The position numbers were made by a program, and so were the translations under genes. From the NCBI RefSeq assembly GCF_900537075.1, contig NZ_UNRA01000006.1, positions 62,001-126,000 on the forward strand: 64,000 nt of DNA, given 5' to 3'. Below, piece after piece: positions 10,031-34,844 of the stretch. The number at the start of each line of letters is the position of its first letter. Positions within the stretch are counted from its first letter, which is position 1. This DNA comes from Tropicibacter sp. Alg240-R139. Its GTDB lineage: Bacteria > Pseudomonadota > Alphaproteobacteria > Rhodobacterales > Rhodobacteraceae. Below the pieces are notes generated by a model. It worked only from the letters and a program-made list of their open reading frames with translations. It did not search any database and was not told where the DNA came from.

Positions 10031-11523
10031 GGATGATCCTCTGGCAGCTTAATGTCGAATGCCGCGCGAATGGCGGCTTCGCGATCCTTGGGCAAATGGG
10101 TTGGGGGTCGCGCTGTCAGTTCGCGCACGCGGTCTTTGGCGCGATCCGTCAGGGCAGGGCGCCCGGCCTCTTGCCAGTCCTGAACGCTTTGCCGGTCGGC
10201 CAGCGCGGGATAGACGTATTCGGTGCGCATCCGGGCCAGCGTTTGCGCCTCGCCCAGATAGTGACCGGGGCCGCTGGCGACCGCTTCGATCATGTCCAGG
10301 TCCAGCGCGTCATCGGCCAATTCGACCCCGCGCACCGAGCGGAGGATGGCGGCGCACATGTCATCGTCGATGACCAGCGCCTCGGCCGAGGCGACCATGA
10401 GTGAACCCAACATGCCGACGCTCAGGTTGATCATGTCCGCCCCGGCCTGTGCGGCCAAGGCAACGGTATAGCCCTTTTCATAGCCCGCCTGCGCATCCGG
10501 CACCTTTGCGTCCGTCATGCCGGCCGACACGGTCGCGGGGATGTCGAGGTTCAGCAACAGCTGCGCGGCGGCGGCGTTGGCCACGGCAGCTTCGCCACTG
10601 CCGCCGGTCATCGCGCCGGTGCGCAGGTCGCTGATGAAGGGCATGAAGGCCAGGATCGTCGGGAAACCGGGGCTGAGCACATTGGCGATGATCAAGCCGG
10701 CCAATGACTCGGCCAGCCCTTGGGCCAGGGCACCGGCCAGGGTCACGGGACTGGTCGCGCCGGCCTGTGCGGCGGTGCAGATTTGCAGGGGCATTCCGGC
10801 CTTGATCGCGGCCTTCATGATCTCGACCCCTTCGGGCGCAAAGCGCAAGGGGGACACCGCATGTACGATGATGCCCATGCAGAAAGGTTGCTGTCTAAAC
10901 CGGCCTTCGCCGCCCAAAGCGATGTCGAACATCTGGGCGATACGTGGCACGTGAAGGGCGGTGTCAAAGCTGATCCCGATTGGCTTGGGGCAAGCCTTGA
11001 GGCAGGCAAAGGCGGTGTTTGCATCCAAGTCCCAGGGCGTTTCCATGTCCCGTGCCACGATGGGGCGCACACCGTAGTGGATGTTTTCAGTGCGGCCCAC
11101 GATTTGCATGAGCCGGTAGAGGTCTAACAGTTGCGCTGGGCGAAACCCGCCCGCGTCATCAGGCACCTCGACCGCAGCGCCGCCTGTGCCGATGTGAACG
11201 TGACCGCCGCCGATGGTCAGGCCGAAATCCTCGGAAAACCCCGGCAGGTTGATGCGTTTCATGGCCTTGGCCAGCGTGGCGTCGATCATGGCCTTCGGAA
11301 AGCACAAGCGGCCATCGTCACGGCACCTTGCACCCTGTTCGATGGCCAATGCAGCCACGTCTTTGGGGCAGTCGGCCAGGCCGATCTTTTCAAGGATATC
11401 AAAGGCGGCCTGAGTGATCTGGTCCAGGCGCCGGGGTCCCAACGGGCGAAAGGTGCCGCCCCGGGGCGGAGGGGTCACGCGAATCCCGCGTGGCGTCTGT
11501 TGTTCTCTTGCCCGCCGTACCAA
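10027..11523 (-). CDS. MttB-family (trimethylamine/betaine) methyltransferase, non-pyrrolysine
   Basis: A 498-residue TIM-barrel methyltransferase of the MttB superfamily, which moves a methyl group from a quaternary or tertiary amine to a corrinoid protein. The reading frame has no amber interruption, so it belongs to the non-pyrrolysine group that includes glycine-betaine methyltransferase MtgB. The start is probably TTG at 11523, with GGA seven bases upstream; no in-frame ATG precedes the conserved part. It ends inside the start of the DMGDH-like gene. No corrinoid protein or corrinoid:folate methyltransferase is in this window. Confidence 0.88.
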   Translation of the reverse strand: MVRRAREQQTPRGIRVTPPPRGGTFRPLGPRRLDQITQAAFDILEKIGLADCPKDVAALAIEQGARCRDDGRLCFPKAMIDATLAKAMKRINLPGFSEDFGLTIGGGHVHIGTGGAAVEVPDDAGGFRPAQLLDLYRLMQIVGRTENIHYGVRPIVARDMETPWDLDANTAFACLKACPKPIGISFDTALHVPRIAQMFDIALGGEGRFRQQPFCMGIIVHAVSPLRFAPEGVEIMKAAIKAGMPLQICTAAQAGATSPVTLAGALAQGLAESLAGLIIANVLSPGFPTILAFMPFISDLRTGAMTGGSGEAAVANAAAAQLLLNLDIPATVSAGMTDAKVPDAQAGYEKGYTVALAAQAGADMINLSVGMLGSLMVASAEALVIDDDMCAAILRSVRGVELADDALDLDMIEAVASGPGHYLGEAQTLARMRTEYVYPALADRQSVQDWQEAGRPALTDRAKDRVRELTARPPTHLPKDREAAIRAAFDIKLPEDHP

Positions 11524-17610: not shown

Positions 17611-18750
17611 ATGATGGATCGCAGGTTTTTCTCGCTTGGTGTTGGGGCTTTGGCGTTGTCGGCCTGTGGGTCGAACAATGTGGCCACCCCAGCCGCCAAG
17701 CCTCGGGTGCAATCGGTTCCCAACGCCGGGTGGGACGCTTGGGTTGATGGGTTCAAGGCCCGCGCCGCAGCACAAGGGATTTCCCAGTCCACAATTAACA
17801 CGGCCTTTCGCGGGGCAGGGTATTTGCCCATCGTGATCGAGCGAGATCGAAACCAGACCGAATTCAAACGCACACTTGAGGATTACCTGGCCATTGCCGC
17901 TTCGGACGAGCGGATCGCGACCGGCAAGCAGATGTTGACGCGCTATCGCACGCTTTTGACGCAGCTTGAGGGGCGCTATGGCGTGCCGCCGCAGATCGTG
18001 GTGGCCATTTGGGGGCTCGAAAGCCGTTACGGCGCGCGGCGCGGCGACATACCGGTAGTTTCGGCGCTTTCGACGCTGGCTTATGACGGGCGGCGCGGCG
18101 CGTTTTTCGAAAAGCAACTCGTGGCGGCGCTCAAGATCCTGCAGAACGGTGATACGACGCCTGCCAACATGACCGGCAGTTGGGCCGGGGCGATGGGGCA
18201 TACGCAATTCATCCCGACGTCTTACCTGGCTTATGCGGTGGATTTCACCGGCGATGGCCGTCGTGACATTTGGTCGGATGATCCCACTGATGCTTTGGCT
18301 TCGGCTGCTGCGTATCTGCAGCGATCAGGCTGGGTGCGTGGGCAAACCTGGGGCGGTGAGGTCGGGTCGGCAGCTGCCAGGTCGGCCTCTCCGGTTTCCG
18401 TCATCCAGCCACAAAAGCCGGGGCCGCAGTTTGCAGTGTTCAAGAATTTCTCGGTGATCAAGCGATATAACAACTCGGACAGCTACGCGTTGGGGGTTGG
18501 ACACCTTGCAGATCGGATCGCAGGTGGGGGTCCGCTCAAAACACCATTTGGACCGGATGCAAATGGGTTGACCCTGAATGATCGGAAAGAGCTGCAAACC
18601 CGACTGACGAAGGCTGGATACGATACTGGCGGAGCAGACGGCGTGATCGGGTCGAAGAGCAAGGCAGCGATCAGCAGCTATCAGAGTGCCAATGGACTGT
18701 CGGTGACAGGGGAACCTTCGGCGGCCTTGTTGCAGCGTTTGCGGGGGTAA
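17611..18750 (+). CDS. Lytic murein transglycosylase (MltB-like lipoprotein)
   Basis: A 379-residue outer-membrane or periplasmic enzyme that cleaves peptidoglycan with formation of anhydromuramic ends. The lipobox LSAC puts the lipidated Cys at residue 19. The SLT domain covers about 40-310; IWGLESRYG holds the catalytic Glu137 and GAMGHTQFIPTSY is the usual substrate-groove motif. Residues about 320-378 are a peptidoglycan-binding repeat domain (LQTRLTKAGYDTGGADGVIG). Complete and of normal length. Confidence 0.94.
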   Translation: MMDRRFFSLGVGALALSACGSNNVATPAAKPRVQSVPNAGWDAWVDGFKARAAAQGISQSTINTAFRGAGYLPIVIERDRNQTEFKRTLEDYLAIAASDERIATGKQMLTRYRTLLTQLEGRYGVPPQIVVAIWGLESRYGARRGDIPVVSALSTLAYDGRRGAFFEKQLVAALKILQNGDTTPANMTGSWAGAMGHTQFIPTSYLAYAVDFTGDGRRDIWSDDPTDALASAAAYLQRSGWVRGQTWGGEVGSAAARSASPVSVIQPQKPGPQFAVFKNFSVIKRYNNSDSYALGVGHLADRIAGGGPLKTPFGPDANGLTLNDRKELQTRLTKAGYDTGGADGVIGSKSKAAISSYQSANGLSVTGEPSAALLQRLRG

Positions 18751-18795: not shown

Positions 18796-18925
18796 GCTCC
18801 CGCACCCGAGCGATCCCGACTTTGTCGGCACCGCTAGCGGTTTTGGGCCGGGCTCCGGGCAAAGCCCGGCGCCCGGCCCAACGGGAGGAGGAGGCCCGTA
18901 AGGGGCATCGACGACGGGCGGGAGC
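18796..18925 (+). repeat. 130-bp structured interspersed repeat, copy A
   Basis: One of two 130-base copies (the other at 33470-33599). It has 8-base inverted ends GCTCCCGC/GCGGGAGC and four internal hairpins: CCGAC-TTT-GTCGG; CCGC-TA-GCGG; a long G+C-rich stem around 18845-18879 with an AAA loop; and GCCC-GTAA-GGGGC near 18893-18906. The outer arms and first two hairpins are identical between copies, while the last two stems differ by paired changes. It lies between the convergent mltB-like and accA genes. Confidence 0.9.
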
Positions 18926-18956
18926 GCTTCCGGCTTGTCAGATCCAAAAAAGCAAA

Positions 18957-18988
18957 GGTCCGGGCAGGCATGCAACGGACCCTTTTTT
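18957..18988. terminator. Bidirectional terminator between mltB-like gene and accA
   Basis: GGTCCG/CGGACC with a 13-base loop, followed on the plus strand by CCTTTTTTG. On the minus strand the stem is followed by TTTGCTTTTTT. It can serve both converging genes. Confidence 0.75.
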
Positions 18989-19010
18989 GTCTGTTTGATA
19001 TGATAGGTGC

Positions 19011-19973
19011 TTAGGCCGCCAACCCCTTGGAACCCATGTCCAGGAACTTCTTGCGACGGTCTGCCACCAGGGCATCACCGTCCATATCCTTGAGCTCGCC
19101 CAGCATCGCTTCGATCATGTGGCCGACCGATGTAACAGCCGCGACGCGATCGCGATGCGCGCCGCCCTTGGGCTCGACAATAACGCGATCCGCCACGCCC
19201 AGTTTGTGCAAATCCTGGGCCGTCAGGCGCAGGGCCTCGGCCGCTTCGCGCATTTTCTCGGCGTCTTTCCACAGGATCGAGGCGCAGCCTTCGGGAGAGA
19301 TCACCGAGTACACTGAATGTTCGAGCATCGCCACTCGATTGGCGGTGGCAAAGGCAACCGCACCGCCCGAACCACCTTCGCCGATGATGACAGACACCAG
19401 TGGCACGCCGATTTTCAAGCACATTTCGGTCGACCGTGCGATGGCCTCGGATTGGCCGCGCTCTTCGGCGCCTTTGCCGGGATAGGCACCGGGGGTGTCT
19501 ACCAGCGTGATCACCGGCAGACCAAAGCGCCCGGCCATCTCCATCAGGCGGATCGCCTTACGATAGCCTTCGGGACGGGCCATGCCAAAATTACGCTCAA
19601 TCCGGGATTTGGTGTCGGTGCCCTTTTCGTGGCCAATGACGACGACAGGCTGGCCATCAAATCGAGCCAGACCGCCCATAACGGCGTGATCGTCCGCAAA
19701 ATTACGGTCCCCAGCCAGCGGCGTGTAATCGGTGAATAGCGCGTCGATATAGTCTTTGCAGTGGGGACGCTCGGGGTGGCGTGCCACCTGACATTTCCGC
19801 CAAGGCGTCAAGTCCTTGTACAGGTCTTCGAGCAACGAGGCGGCCTTGGCATCCAGAGCGGCGGCCTCTTCGGCTACGTCCATCTCTTCATTGGCGCGTG
19901 CCATTGCACGCAGCTCTTCTGCTTTGCCTTCGATCTCGGCCAGGGGTTTTTCGAAATCCAGATACTGAGTCAT
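19011..19973 (-). CDS. accA: Acetyl-CoA carboxylase carboxyltransferase subunit alpha
   Basis: A 320-residue subunit that, with AccD, transfers the carboxyl group from biotin to acetyl-CoA to make malonyl-CoA for fatty acid synthesis. Family sequence is continuous: [15 protein letters not shown] at the start, [19 protein letters not shown], then [15 protein letters not shown] and [12 protein letters not shown], and the oxyanion-forming [13 protein letters not shown] 19973 has GAGAGG upstream; four extra codons to 19985 are unlikely. AccD is not in this window. Confidence 0.97.
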
Positions 19974-32998: not shown

Positions 32999-33364
32999 AT
33001 GTCCCGCGTTAAAGGTGGAACCACGACTCACGCCCGTCACAAGAAGATTGTTAAGGCCGCCAAAGGTTACTATGGCCGCCGCAAGAACACCTTCAAGGTC
33101 GCTACTCAGGCCGTCGACAAGGCAAACCAGTATGCAACTCGCGACCGCAAGAATCGCAAGCGGAACTTCCGCGCACTGTGGATTCAGCGTATCAACGCTG
33201 CGGTGCGTTCGCACGACGAGGCGCTGACGTATTCGCGCTTCATCAACGGCCTGAACCTGGCCGGCATCGAAGTTGACCGTAAGGTCCTGGCCGACCTGGC
33301 CGTGCACGAGCCCGAAGCGTTCGGCACAATCGTAGCCAAGGCACAGGCAGCTCTGGCCGCGTAA
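32999..33364 (+). CDS. rplT: 50S ribosomal protein L20
   Basis: A 121-residue protein with typical L20 features: a basic extended N-terminus ([20 protein letters not shown]) that reaches into 23S rRNA, and a globular C-terminal part with [18 protein letters not shown]. It is required early in large-subunit assembly and, in other bacteria, represses its own operon. AAGAGGAGATCTGAGAT precedes the ATG. A terminator follows. Confidence 0.98.
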
Positions 33365-33390: not shown

Positions 33391-33425
33391 AAGGGTCGAT
33401 CTAGCGTGGGTCGGCCCTTTTTCTT
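33391..33425 (+). terminator. Rho-independent terminator after rplT
   Basis: AAGGGTCGA/TCGGCCCTT forms a 9-base-pair stem with one G-U pair, and its 3' arm runs into TTTTTC. It lies 26 bases after the stop codon. Confidence 0.85.
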
Positions 33426-33469
33426 TGCGATAACTCATCAGGGGTTTTGCGCTTTCCTGAAAACGGAGA

Positions 33470-33599
33470 GCTCCCGCACCCGAGCGATCCCGACTTTGTC
33501 GGCACCGCTAGCGGCTTTGGGCCGGGCACTGCGCAAAGCGCAGTGCCCGGCCCAACGGGAGGAGGTGTTTCGCTAGAAACATCGACGACGGGCGGGAGC
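33470..33599 (+). repeat. 130-bp structured interspersed repeat, copy B
   Basis: Second copy of the element at 18796-18925, same length and orientation. The arms GCTCCCGC/GCGGGAGC and the hairpins CCGAC-TTT-GTCGG and CCGC-TA-GCGG are unchanged. The long stem has ACTGCGC-AAA-GCGCAGT inside the shared GGGCCGGGC/GCCCGGCCC, and the last stem is TGTTTC-GCTA-GAAACA. Both stems are perfectly paired in this copy. It lies after the rplT terminator and before the end of the convergent MFS gene. Confidence 0.9.
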
Positions 33600-33650: not shown

Positions 33651-34844
33651 CTAAGGTTGATCCTCATCTCGTGCAAGTGGCTTTTGCGTCAACGCCAATG
33701 CAGCCCCTAAGATCAGCAGGGCAGACGCCGCCAGCAGGCTGTCGCCAATGTCACCAGTCCGATCACCGATCAATCCGGCGCCTATGGGGCCGACCGTTTG
33801 GGACACTGCAAAGACAACGGTGAACATGCTGATTGTAGCCCCCCAGCTTTCCTGTGGCATGTTCTGGCGGGTGAAATTGGTGATTGCTCCGGGCGCCATG
33901 AAAACCGACAAGCCAAAAACGACAGCTGATGCCAGTAATCCTGCCGGGGTCGGAACAAAAATCGGCAAAGCTGATCCGGCTGCTATTCCGACAAGGATCA
34001 TGGCGAGAGGGATGCCGTTGGCGAAACGCGCAAAGACAGATCTCCAGATAAATGGGGACAGGGTGATGCATGCCCCAAGAAGAACCCAAACTCCTGAGAT
34101 CAAAGTGGCACTGTAGTCGCGCTCTTTCATCCATAGAGCAAGGAACGTCAGGTACACTATGTATCCCAGCCCAAATCCGGCATAGCCACAGATCTCGCCC
34201 AGCATCTTGCGTATTGGCACTGGATGGCGCGTCTGAGTTGGCGTCGAAGGGACCCGCAATGCTTCGCCTGCCCATATGCTCAGCGGGCAAATGGCAAAAC
34301 TGACCAATCCGATCCCTATCCAGCTCCACGGCCAGGCCTCTGGCCCCAACCATTCCAGCATCAGGGGCAAAGATGCGCCACACAAGACGATGCCCAAACC
34401 ACCGCCCCCACCAAAGTAGAACGCGATCGACAGAGCATTGCGCTTTGGGTCATCTTGAAACAGGGCTGCAGCCAAGGCGCCCCCGGCGACAAAAGACCCG
34501 GCGCCAAAGACGCCAGCCAGAATGCGCCACAGGCTTTGGGCGAACAGCGAAGCGTTCAACCCGGTTGCAAACAGACAGATAGCCGTCAGGACAACGCCCG
34601 CACTGAACAGACGAGACGCTCCGACATGGCGGATTAGGGCAACGGTGAACAACGACCCGAAAACATAACCCAAAGCGTTGGCGGTGTTGAGCCAGCCCGC
34701 TTCGGCGTAGGTCCAGTTTTGCGAAGATTTCATCGCCGGCAAAATTAGGCCATAGGCGAAGCGGGCAAAGCCATTGGTGACACATACACCCAAGGCCAGC
34801 CCCAACAGGACCAGCCAGGGCCTCGATGGTGTCACAATCTGCAT
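33651..34844 (-). CDS. MFS transporter (YbfB/YjiJ family)
   Basis: A 397-residue permease with about twelve helices and the YbfB/YjiJ-type beginning (WLVLLGLALGVCVTNGFARF). Substrates of this branch are poorly known; efflux of small organic molecules is typical. Codon choice is somewhat less G+C-rich by eye than that of its neighbours, so recent acquisition is possible but weakly supported. It converges on the rplT/repeat region. Confidence 0.88.
   Translation of the reverse strand: MQIVTPSRPWLVLLGLALGVCVTNGFARFAYGLILPAMKSSQNWTYAEAGWLNTANALGYVFGSLFTVALIRHVGASRLFSAGVVLTAICLFATGLNASLFAQSLWRILAGVFGAGSFVAGGALAAALFQDDPKRNALSIAFYFGGGGGLGIVLCGASLPLMLEWLGPEAWPWSWIGIGLVSFAICPLSIWAGEALRVPSTPTQTRHPVPIRKMLGEICGYAGFGLGYIVYLTFLALWMKERDYSATLISGVWVLLGACITLSPFIWRSVFARFANGIPLAMILVGIAAGSALPIFVPTPAGLLASAVVFGLSVFMAPGAITNFTRQNMPQESWGATISMFTVVFAVSQTVGPIGAGLIGDRTGDIGDSLLAASALLILGAALALTQKPLARDEDQP

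Follow-up and report, generated by a model that had tools for sequence, protein, structure and literature searches.

Several known systems resemble the repeat described here. The ends of classic REP sequences are short and carry a GTAG tag, and BIMEs have a role in supercoiling. The ends of IS200/IS605 elements fold as single strands, are not inverted repeats and are used on one strand, and the folded attC site of integrons bears RYYYAAC at its 5' side and GTTRRRY at its 3' side. The RYYYAAC box of attC is among the features covered in PMC8632094, and compensatory changes are described as common in the palindromic spacer of REPINs (PMC3116915). CGTC-tagged REPs are reported mostly from alphaproteobacteria, near gene 3' ends and often between convergent genes, where they form HH dimers with structured spacers and have no known transposase; their stems are of 8-9 bp, almost invariably with A-T pairs first, their loops of 4-5 nucleotides and their tails mostly CCA (PMC3733652). 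The main text of that paper makes no mention of Rhodobacter, Ruegeria or Roseobacter.

The window analysed here, a stretch of 64,000 nucleotides, is part of contig 6 of Tropicibacter sp. Alg240-R139, a 4.66 Mb genome of the Falsiruegeria/Tropicibacter type (labelled G000 where needed, G002 being the sister species, G001-G003 congeners, and L numbers single loci). It holds two copies, A and B, of an element in which two outward-facing ends of approximately 50 nt, L and R, each with its own hairpin, flank a central palindrome (Table 1); a scan with core and L-end patterns finds these to be the sole copies in the window. As originally predicted, both have the same orientation and lie in convergent gaps; the gene pairs are transglycosylase/accA and rplT/MFS, and both copies have an adjoining terminator-like hairpin, in one case the terminator of rplT itself, upstream of B, and in the other a hairpin of accA beside A.

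Table 1. Coordinates of the two copies, their parts and their neighbours within the window
Feature	Position	Strand	Basis or remark
Copy A, full short L+R element	18796..18925	+	88% identity to copy B over 130 nt; fold
Copy B, full short L+R element	33470..33599	+	88% identity to copy A over 130 nt; fold
L half of copy A (diverged inverted R-like end)	18796..18842	-	folding: -22.7 kcal/mol minus vs -15.8 plus
L half of copy B	33470..33516	-	folding: -22.5 minus vs -15.5 plus
Central palindrome (long stem), copy A, one mismatch	18843..18881	+	sequence and folding
Central palindrome (long stem), copy B, perfect	33517..33555	+	sequence and folding
R core of copy A, CCCAACGGGAGG - hairpin B - GACGGGCGGGAG	18877..18924	+	R half: -13.0 plus vs -8.8 minus
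R core of copy B	33551..33598	+	R half: -14.6 plus vs -4.5 minus
Lytic transglycosylase gene (SLT_2 + PG_binding_1), left of copy A	17680..18750	+	
accA, convergent right neighbour of copy A	19011..19973	-	
rplT (ribosomal protein L20), left of copy B	32999..33364	+	
MFS transporter gene, convergent right neighbour of copy B	33651..34844	-	
Terminator-like hairpin and T run, rplT-copy B gap; separate terminator	33393..33426	+	read by eye
Bidirectional terminator-like hairpin, copy A-accA gap	18946..18989	.	read by eye

Between the two copies, which are equal in length, 16 of 130 positions differ; positions 1-45 (the left arm and first hairpin region) and the final 20 are identical. Within the long stem, A has C-G at element pair 61-73, where B has T-A, and G-C at pair 63-71, where B has C-G. 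In the last hairpin, pairs 100-109 and 101-108 are both C-G in A but T-A in B. Copy A has mismatches at 59/75, 97/112 and 99/110, none of which is present in B. RNA folding of each copy beats 200 of 200 dinucleotide shuffles (z = -5.07 for A and -7.98 for B). The coordinates, sequences, paired substitutions and three mismatches of the original prediction are all borne out. The paired changes are real, but the differences between two copies are weak evidence when taken alone, because the hairpins seem to be exchanged as blocks; much of the A/B difference need not be stepwise compensatory mutation.

The two copies belong to a real, sizeable and mosaic family of dispersed REPIN/BIME-like repeats of Rhodobacteraceae. 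BLAST and the exact core pattern locate 84 places in the own genome, comprising 35 short L+R copies, 22 long L+R copies, whose central stem bears additional hairpins at its tip, and 27 R-only copies. A pattern for the L end matches 69 places, 17 of them new (nine with a core at up to four mismatches and eight without a core), giving 101 places altogether; looser L patterns proved too permissive and were dropped, and reversed-reading controls of the core and L-end patterns gave 0 matches in the genomes searched. Of 394 Rhodobacteraceae genomes sampled, 34 carry the exact core. In a sample of 385 genomes from the class, five of which belong to Rhodobacteraceae, the own genome was the sole carrier, with 0 of the 380 genomes outside the family. 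The element is so far known only from Rhodobacteraceae. Carriers known by name include F. mediterranea M17 and Tropicibacter sp. R16_0, both matched in a genome-contig database by a second pattern (a first was without match), and Tritonibacter mobilis F1926. Among plasmids, a long-copy query found no match and a shorter one matched Tritonibacter and Parasedimentitalea, plasmids of Parasedimentitalea marina and P. psychrophila carrying a copy of 75.6% identity between convergent DUF4384 and caspase-family genes. Viral contigs and phages were searched and gave no match. The search of related Rhodobacteraceae that had been proposed with the prediction found further copies, which covary, rather than the lack of copies or of paired change that had been named as counting against it.

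Neither copy matches any Rfam 15 family at the gathering score when the whole window is searched, and six loci of the family compared with Rfam at E values up to 1 gave nothing credible, the best relevant hit being SorX at 24.1 bits against 46.6, on the opposite strand. Literature searches, with supplements outside their scope, found no paper on the element. The view that no named family fits has held, and as far as these Rfam and literature searches show, this is an undescribed repeat family in a well-studied marine bacterial family.

The R core, CCCAACGGGAGG - hairpin B - CGACGGGCGGGAG, is usually preceded by a palindrome and is the better-kept end, its blocks being constant and its hairpin wholly changed yet paired. 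The L end can be recognised as an inverted R that has diverged, most clearly in T. mobilis (GTTGGGC...GCCCAAC), and R-only and L-only copies are halves. In L391, a decayed copy in the own genome, the first part of L seems to be fused to the second part of an inverted R. Among the matches listed for genome G018, the 52 cores have either CCCAAC with CGACGGGC (18) or CCCAAA with CGACGTGC (34), combinations that are never mixed although the search pattern permitted mixing; the C-G to A-T exchange therefore reveals a pair within the constant blocks. The nucleotides that flank hairpin B suggest tandem G.A pairs, with G-C in other genera.

Variants of this plan also occur. An alternative left module, TTGCGTCCTGCGGACGGC, stands ahead of the long palindrome in seven R-only copies of the own genome (L144, L146, L162, L169, L176, L192 and L198) and is found in another genus too (L126, G065), and GCGTTCTGCGG is the left module in other R-only copies. 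In several genera, a CTCCGGCGGGGTATATTT-like motif, or its complement, recurs beside the central palindrome of the core (L110, L118, L120, L122, L319, L320) and looks like a second Rhodobacteraceae repeat component. Two loci of the own genome (L395, L397) have a collapsed form in which the R core lies 44 nt downstream of the L end, without the central palindrome. At L119 (G008), a run of approximately 50 G, possibly a sequencing artefact, lies in the gap immediately upstream of the core.

Like REPINs, the element has a palindromic spacer enclosed by two conserved ends in inverted orientation, is dispersed in intergenic space and occurs as doublets and singlets. The inverted arrangement is evident from the L end of T. 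mobilis, from outward-facing pairs in G018 and from the 57 of 84 own copies that have both L and R. It differs from REPINs in having ends of approximately 50 nt with a freely varying internal hairpin, rather than a 16-mer REP, in the opposite wobble bias of its halves, in its strong retention at orthologous sites and in the absence of a Y1/RAYT gene from the genus (G000-G003). The GTAG tag is absent from its constant blocks. A RAYT-associated REPIN was considered and rejected, PF01797 being absent from G000-G003. As in CGTC-tagged REPs, a CGTC stands 5' of the hairpin on the complementary strand, and an unpaired CGTC lies beside hairpin B in the cores listed; however, the stems here are free in sequence and length, the CGTC falls within a long constant block, and it is CCTCCCGTTGGG that adjoins the stem. 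The R-type ends around tnpA remnants in G018 recall IS200/IS605, whereas here the ends form an inverted pair, each under selection on the strand that reads outward, and 25 of 32 other carriers are without a Y1 match. The element shares GC-rich hairpins at gene ends with intrinsic terminators, which it appears to replace in convergent gaps, but it has no U run and has large conserved blocks outside its stems. An integron attC site was rejected on the reversed order of the boxes (GTTGGGC...GCCCAAC in T. mobilis).

The original prediction that the folded form, as RNA or single-stranded DNA, is under selection is supported by covariation across genera and by strand-specific wobble pairs. In 20 R cores from 18 genera, 87.8% of hairpin B cells are paired compared with 57.6% in shuffles, and the covariation score is 0.725 compared with 0.210, with 0 of 500 shuffles as high. 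A strong stem is found in 93% of 87 hairpins from 31 other genera, hand-picked among the matches listed with near-duplicates omitted, compared with 16-18% of shuffled hairpins. On the R strand, hairpin B has G.T and A.C pairs in ratios of 59:3 in the own genome (67 of the 68 hairpins in the list), 12:0 in G002 and 34:8 in other genera (P = 7e-5). The bias is reversed in the L hairpin, at 9:33 in 90 copies or 9:31 when distinct sequences are counted (P = 7e-4), which amounts to G.U on the minus strand. Because copies within one genome are related, 34:8 and 9:31 are the safer counts. No consistent wobble bias was found in the central palindrome (11:25, 12:11, 13:10) or in the pair adjoining the hairpin B stem on the outside (5:7, 20:4, 11:13), and the folding energies of the window copies agree with the bias in both halves (Table 1). 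These results indicate that each half is selected as a folded single strand, RNA or ssDNA, that reads outward. Opposite bias in the two halves is not expected from selection at the duplex level or from palindrome repair, and the comparison offers a sequence-only test that separates single-strand from duplex selection and is applicable to other REP-like repeats.

The family is almost entirely restricted to gene 3' ends. According to gene calls from a codon-model caller of our own (this and the terminator finder are simple scripts), the 84 own places comprise 55 in convergent gaps, 14 tandem in sense, 13 tandem in antisense, 2 in divergent gaps and 0 in genes. In 1.6 Mb of G002, the 42 cores with up to three mismatches are distributed as 28 convergent, 13 tandem and 1 divergent, with none within a gene; the same stretch has 110 convergent, 468 tandem and 219 divergent gaps of at least 60 nt. 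Tandem gaps have no orientation bias (sense to antisense 14:13 in the own genome and 8:5 in G002; pooled 22:18, P = 0.64), and of the R-only copies located in such gaps 5 are antisense and 1 is sense. No replication-strand preference is visible in the 1.6 Mb, which has one G-skew sign and carries elements on both strands.

Presence or absence of the element differs between species. Comparison of the own genome with the 1.6 Mb of G002 left 46 of the 84 sites without an orthologue and 13 mapped by one flank (8 absent, 5 present), the latter being excluded, as the element might itself have served as the anchor. Both flanks could be mapped for 25 gaps, of which 22 keep the element, all in the same orientation; the other three are one decayed copy, one empty gap and the copy A site, which has other genes between the flanks. 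The rplT core (copy B) is present in all 4 genomes of the genus and absent in 17 of 17 loci read from other genera (21 of 30 loci were read, and the omitted 9 include three more genera of the family). At a third gene, for which 11 of 30 loci were read, the core is found in the 4 genus genomes and in G008 and is absent from 6 more distant homologues. By comparison, the accA core (copy A) is confined to the own genome among the 28 loci readable out of 30, L211 and L215 lying at contig edges. Across 528 positions of the constant blocks at shared sites, G000 has 2 mismatches and G002 at most 8; one shared site of G002 with 3 mismatches is a registration artefact and is listed elsewhere as an exact core. 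Hairpin B is no more alike at orthologous sites of the two species than at shuffled sites (0.619 versus 0.607, P = 0.29), whereas the 100 nt upstream keep some memory of the site (0.629 versus 0.565, P < 0.0002). The lack of site memory implies a very fast turnover of the hairpin, which probably proceeds in part, we infer, by exchange of whole modules between copies. The history may be read as insertion in an ancestor of the genus followed by long retention, with modules exchanged between copies.

Convergent gene ends that face the element are short of separate intrinsic terminators. These are found at 7 of 56 such ends in G002 compared with 41 of 112 ends without the element (P = 0.001), and at 18 of 108 compared with 8 of 18 among the G000 loci (P = 0.012), even though element-bearing gaps are longer (median 241 versus 151), which should favour finding terminators there. 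Tandem gaps with and without the element have terminators in 5 of 13 and 113 of 298 cases in G002, where there is no shortage, and in 5 of 28 and 27 of 74 in G000. The element itself does not have the stable hairpin directly followed by a U run of an intrinsic terminator: terminator-like sites occur within 4 (sense) and 1 (antisense) of 42 copies, compared with 61 and 43 of 400 random intergenic windows, so that any termination would be non-canonical. The shortage would fit an element that stands in for the terminator in both directions.

On the evidence of sequence comparison, a REPIN-like element may now be kept as a bidirectional 3'-end structure, a reading to which we give slightly less than an even chance. 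The element would have come as a non-autonomous mobile element, moved in trans by an enzyme now unseen in the genus. At present, RNA from either convergent gene would end in a compact fold, in both directions and without a U run, and this fold would stop transcription, or fix and protect the 3' end. Such a role is consistent with the strand-specific wobble, the covariation across genera, the location in convergent gaps, the 22 of 25 sites retained, the intact blocks and the terminator shortage, which together suggest that gene messages have their ends shaped by the element, itself perhaps mobile in the past. Against it stand the R-only tandem copies that are mostly antisense, the normal frequency of terminators in G002 tandem gaps, and the terminator-like hairpins that rplT and accA have of their own; the unbiased tandem orientation likewise speaks against a simple role in the sense UTR. 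The fullest version of this reading is rather unlikely to hold in every part: a module specific to Rhodobacteraceae and recruited from a REPIN-like mobile element, with R serving one transcript and the complement of L the other, would have replaced intrinsic terminators in approximately a quarter of the convergent gaps of the sister species, its blocks under selection and its hairpin modules exchanged. Were a 3'-end role true, a mobile palindrome would have become a standard gene-end part, and the way in which GC-rich alphaproteobacteria keep convergent genes apart without ordinary terminators would be open to testing.

No Y1 transposase (PF01797) was found in G000-G003. Of 32 carriers from other genera, only 7 have a Y1 match, and apart from those of G018 these matches are not close to any exact core in the list, which lacks one of the 11 cores of G010. 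In G018, IS200/IS605 tnpA remnants are framed by R-type ends: at L321 an R end lies approximately 335 nt before the remnant, and at L320 an R unit lies approximately 70 nt past it. L319 has the same right part as L320, cut off after the palindrome, and the left 273 nt of L321 have 83.5% identity to the flank of L133, a copy without tnpA. At L318 (G010), where the tnpA gene is intact, no R-type end was found within the flanks. The apparent IS200 link is a lead rather than a finding, and no mobiliser is established. In six contigs of G018 (C2, C3, C6, C10, C14 and C16) cores lie 120-231 nt from the contig start, as if the assembly broke in longer repeats bearing these ends, and intact mobile copies could be hidden there.

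The same observations can be viewed as those of a purely selfish non-autonomous mobile element of the REPIN or MITE kind, whose ends, folded in ssDNA, would be recognised in trans by a transposase, perhaps HUH/Y1, and whose place at gene ends would reflect tolerated insertions, with no function for the host. We regard this as a substantial possibility, although short of probable. The REPIN-like plan with its R-only and L-only halves, the cores of G018 that lie less than 500 bp apart and face outward in 8 of 8 pairs, the framed tnpA remnants, the unbiased tandem orientation and the empty sites in relatives would all follow from it, and strand-specific wobble is expected for ssDNA ends too. What it explains less readily is the rarity of Y1 among carriers, its absence in G000-G003 and its absence near listed cores outside G018, together with the intact cores of copies common to two species, since decay would be expected of old insertions; nor is decay further advanced in R-only halves than in full copies (P = 0.44 for 31 cores, another pattern having given 42). 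The original prediction had opposed a MITE-like origin to a selected structure; the structure is supported, and a MITE- or REPIN-like origin is compatible with it.

A DNA-level site resembling the BIMEs of E. coli, to which gyrase or a nucleoid protein would bind in regions of positive supercoiling between convergent genes, would account for the strong preference for convergent over divergent gaps and for the lack of orientation bias, but the opposite wobble bias points to folded single strands rather than a duplex, and we consider such a site improbable. An independent small-RNA gene in each copy might explain the strand-specific folding and the copies that are antisense to both neighbours; this reading is very improbable, the region upstream of the core not being conserved among subtypes, so that no shared promoter is seen. 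Lowest of all we place mutational palindrome repair and gene conversion acting alone, with arms kept paired in the absence of selection: the hairpin without site memory and the common hairpin types peculiar to each genome agree with it, but repair predicts equal numbers of G.T and A.C mismatches where the observed bias is opposite in the two halves, and the blocks between the hairpins stay constant, so that repair alone is disfavoured. The bidirectional 3'-end structure remains our tentative preference.

Elsewhere in the window, positions 10416-10518 on the minus strand match the Rfam family PYLIS_3 (pyrrolysine insertion sequence mttB) at 48.2 bits (gathering score 38), a match that, in a genome from Rhodobacteraceae, may only mark an mttB-like gene.
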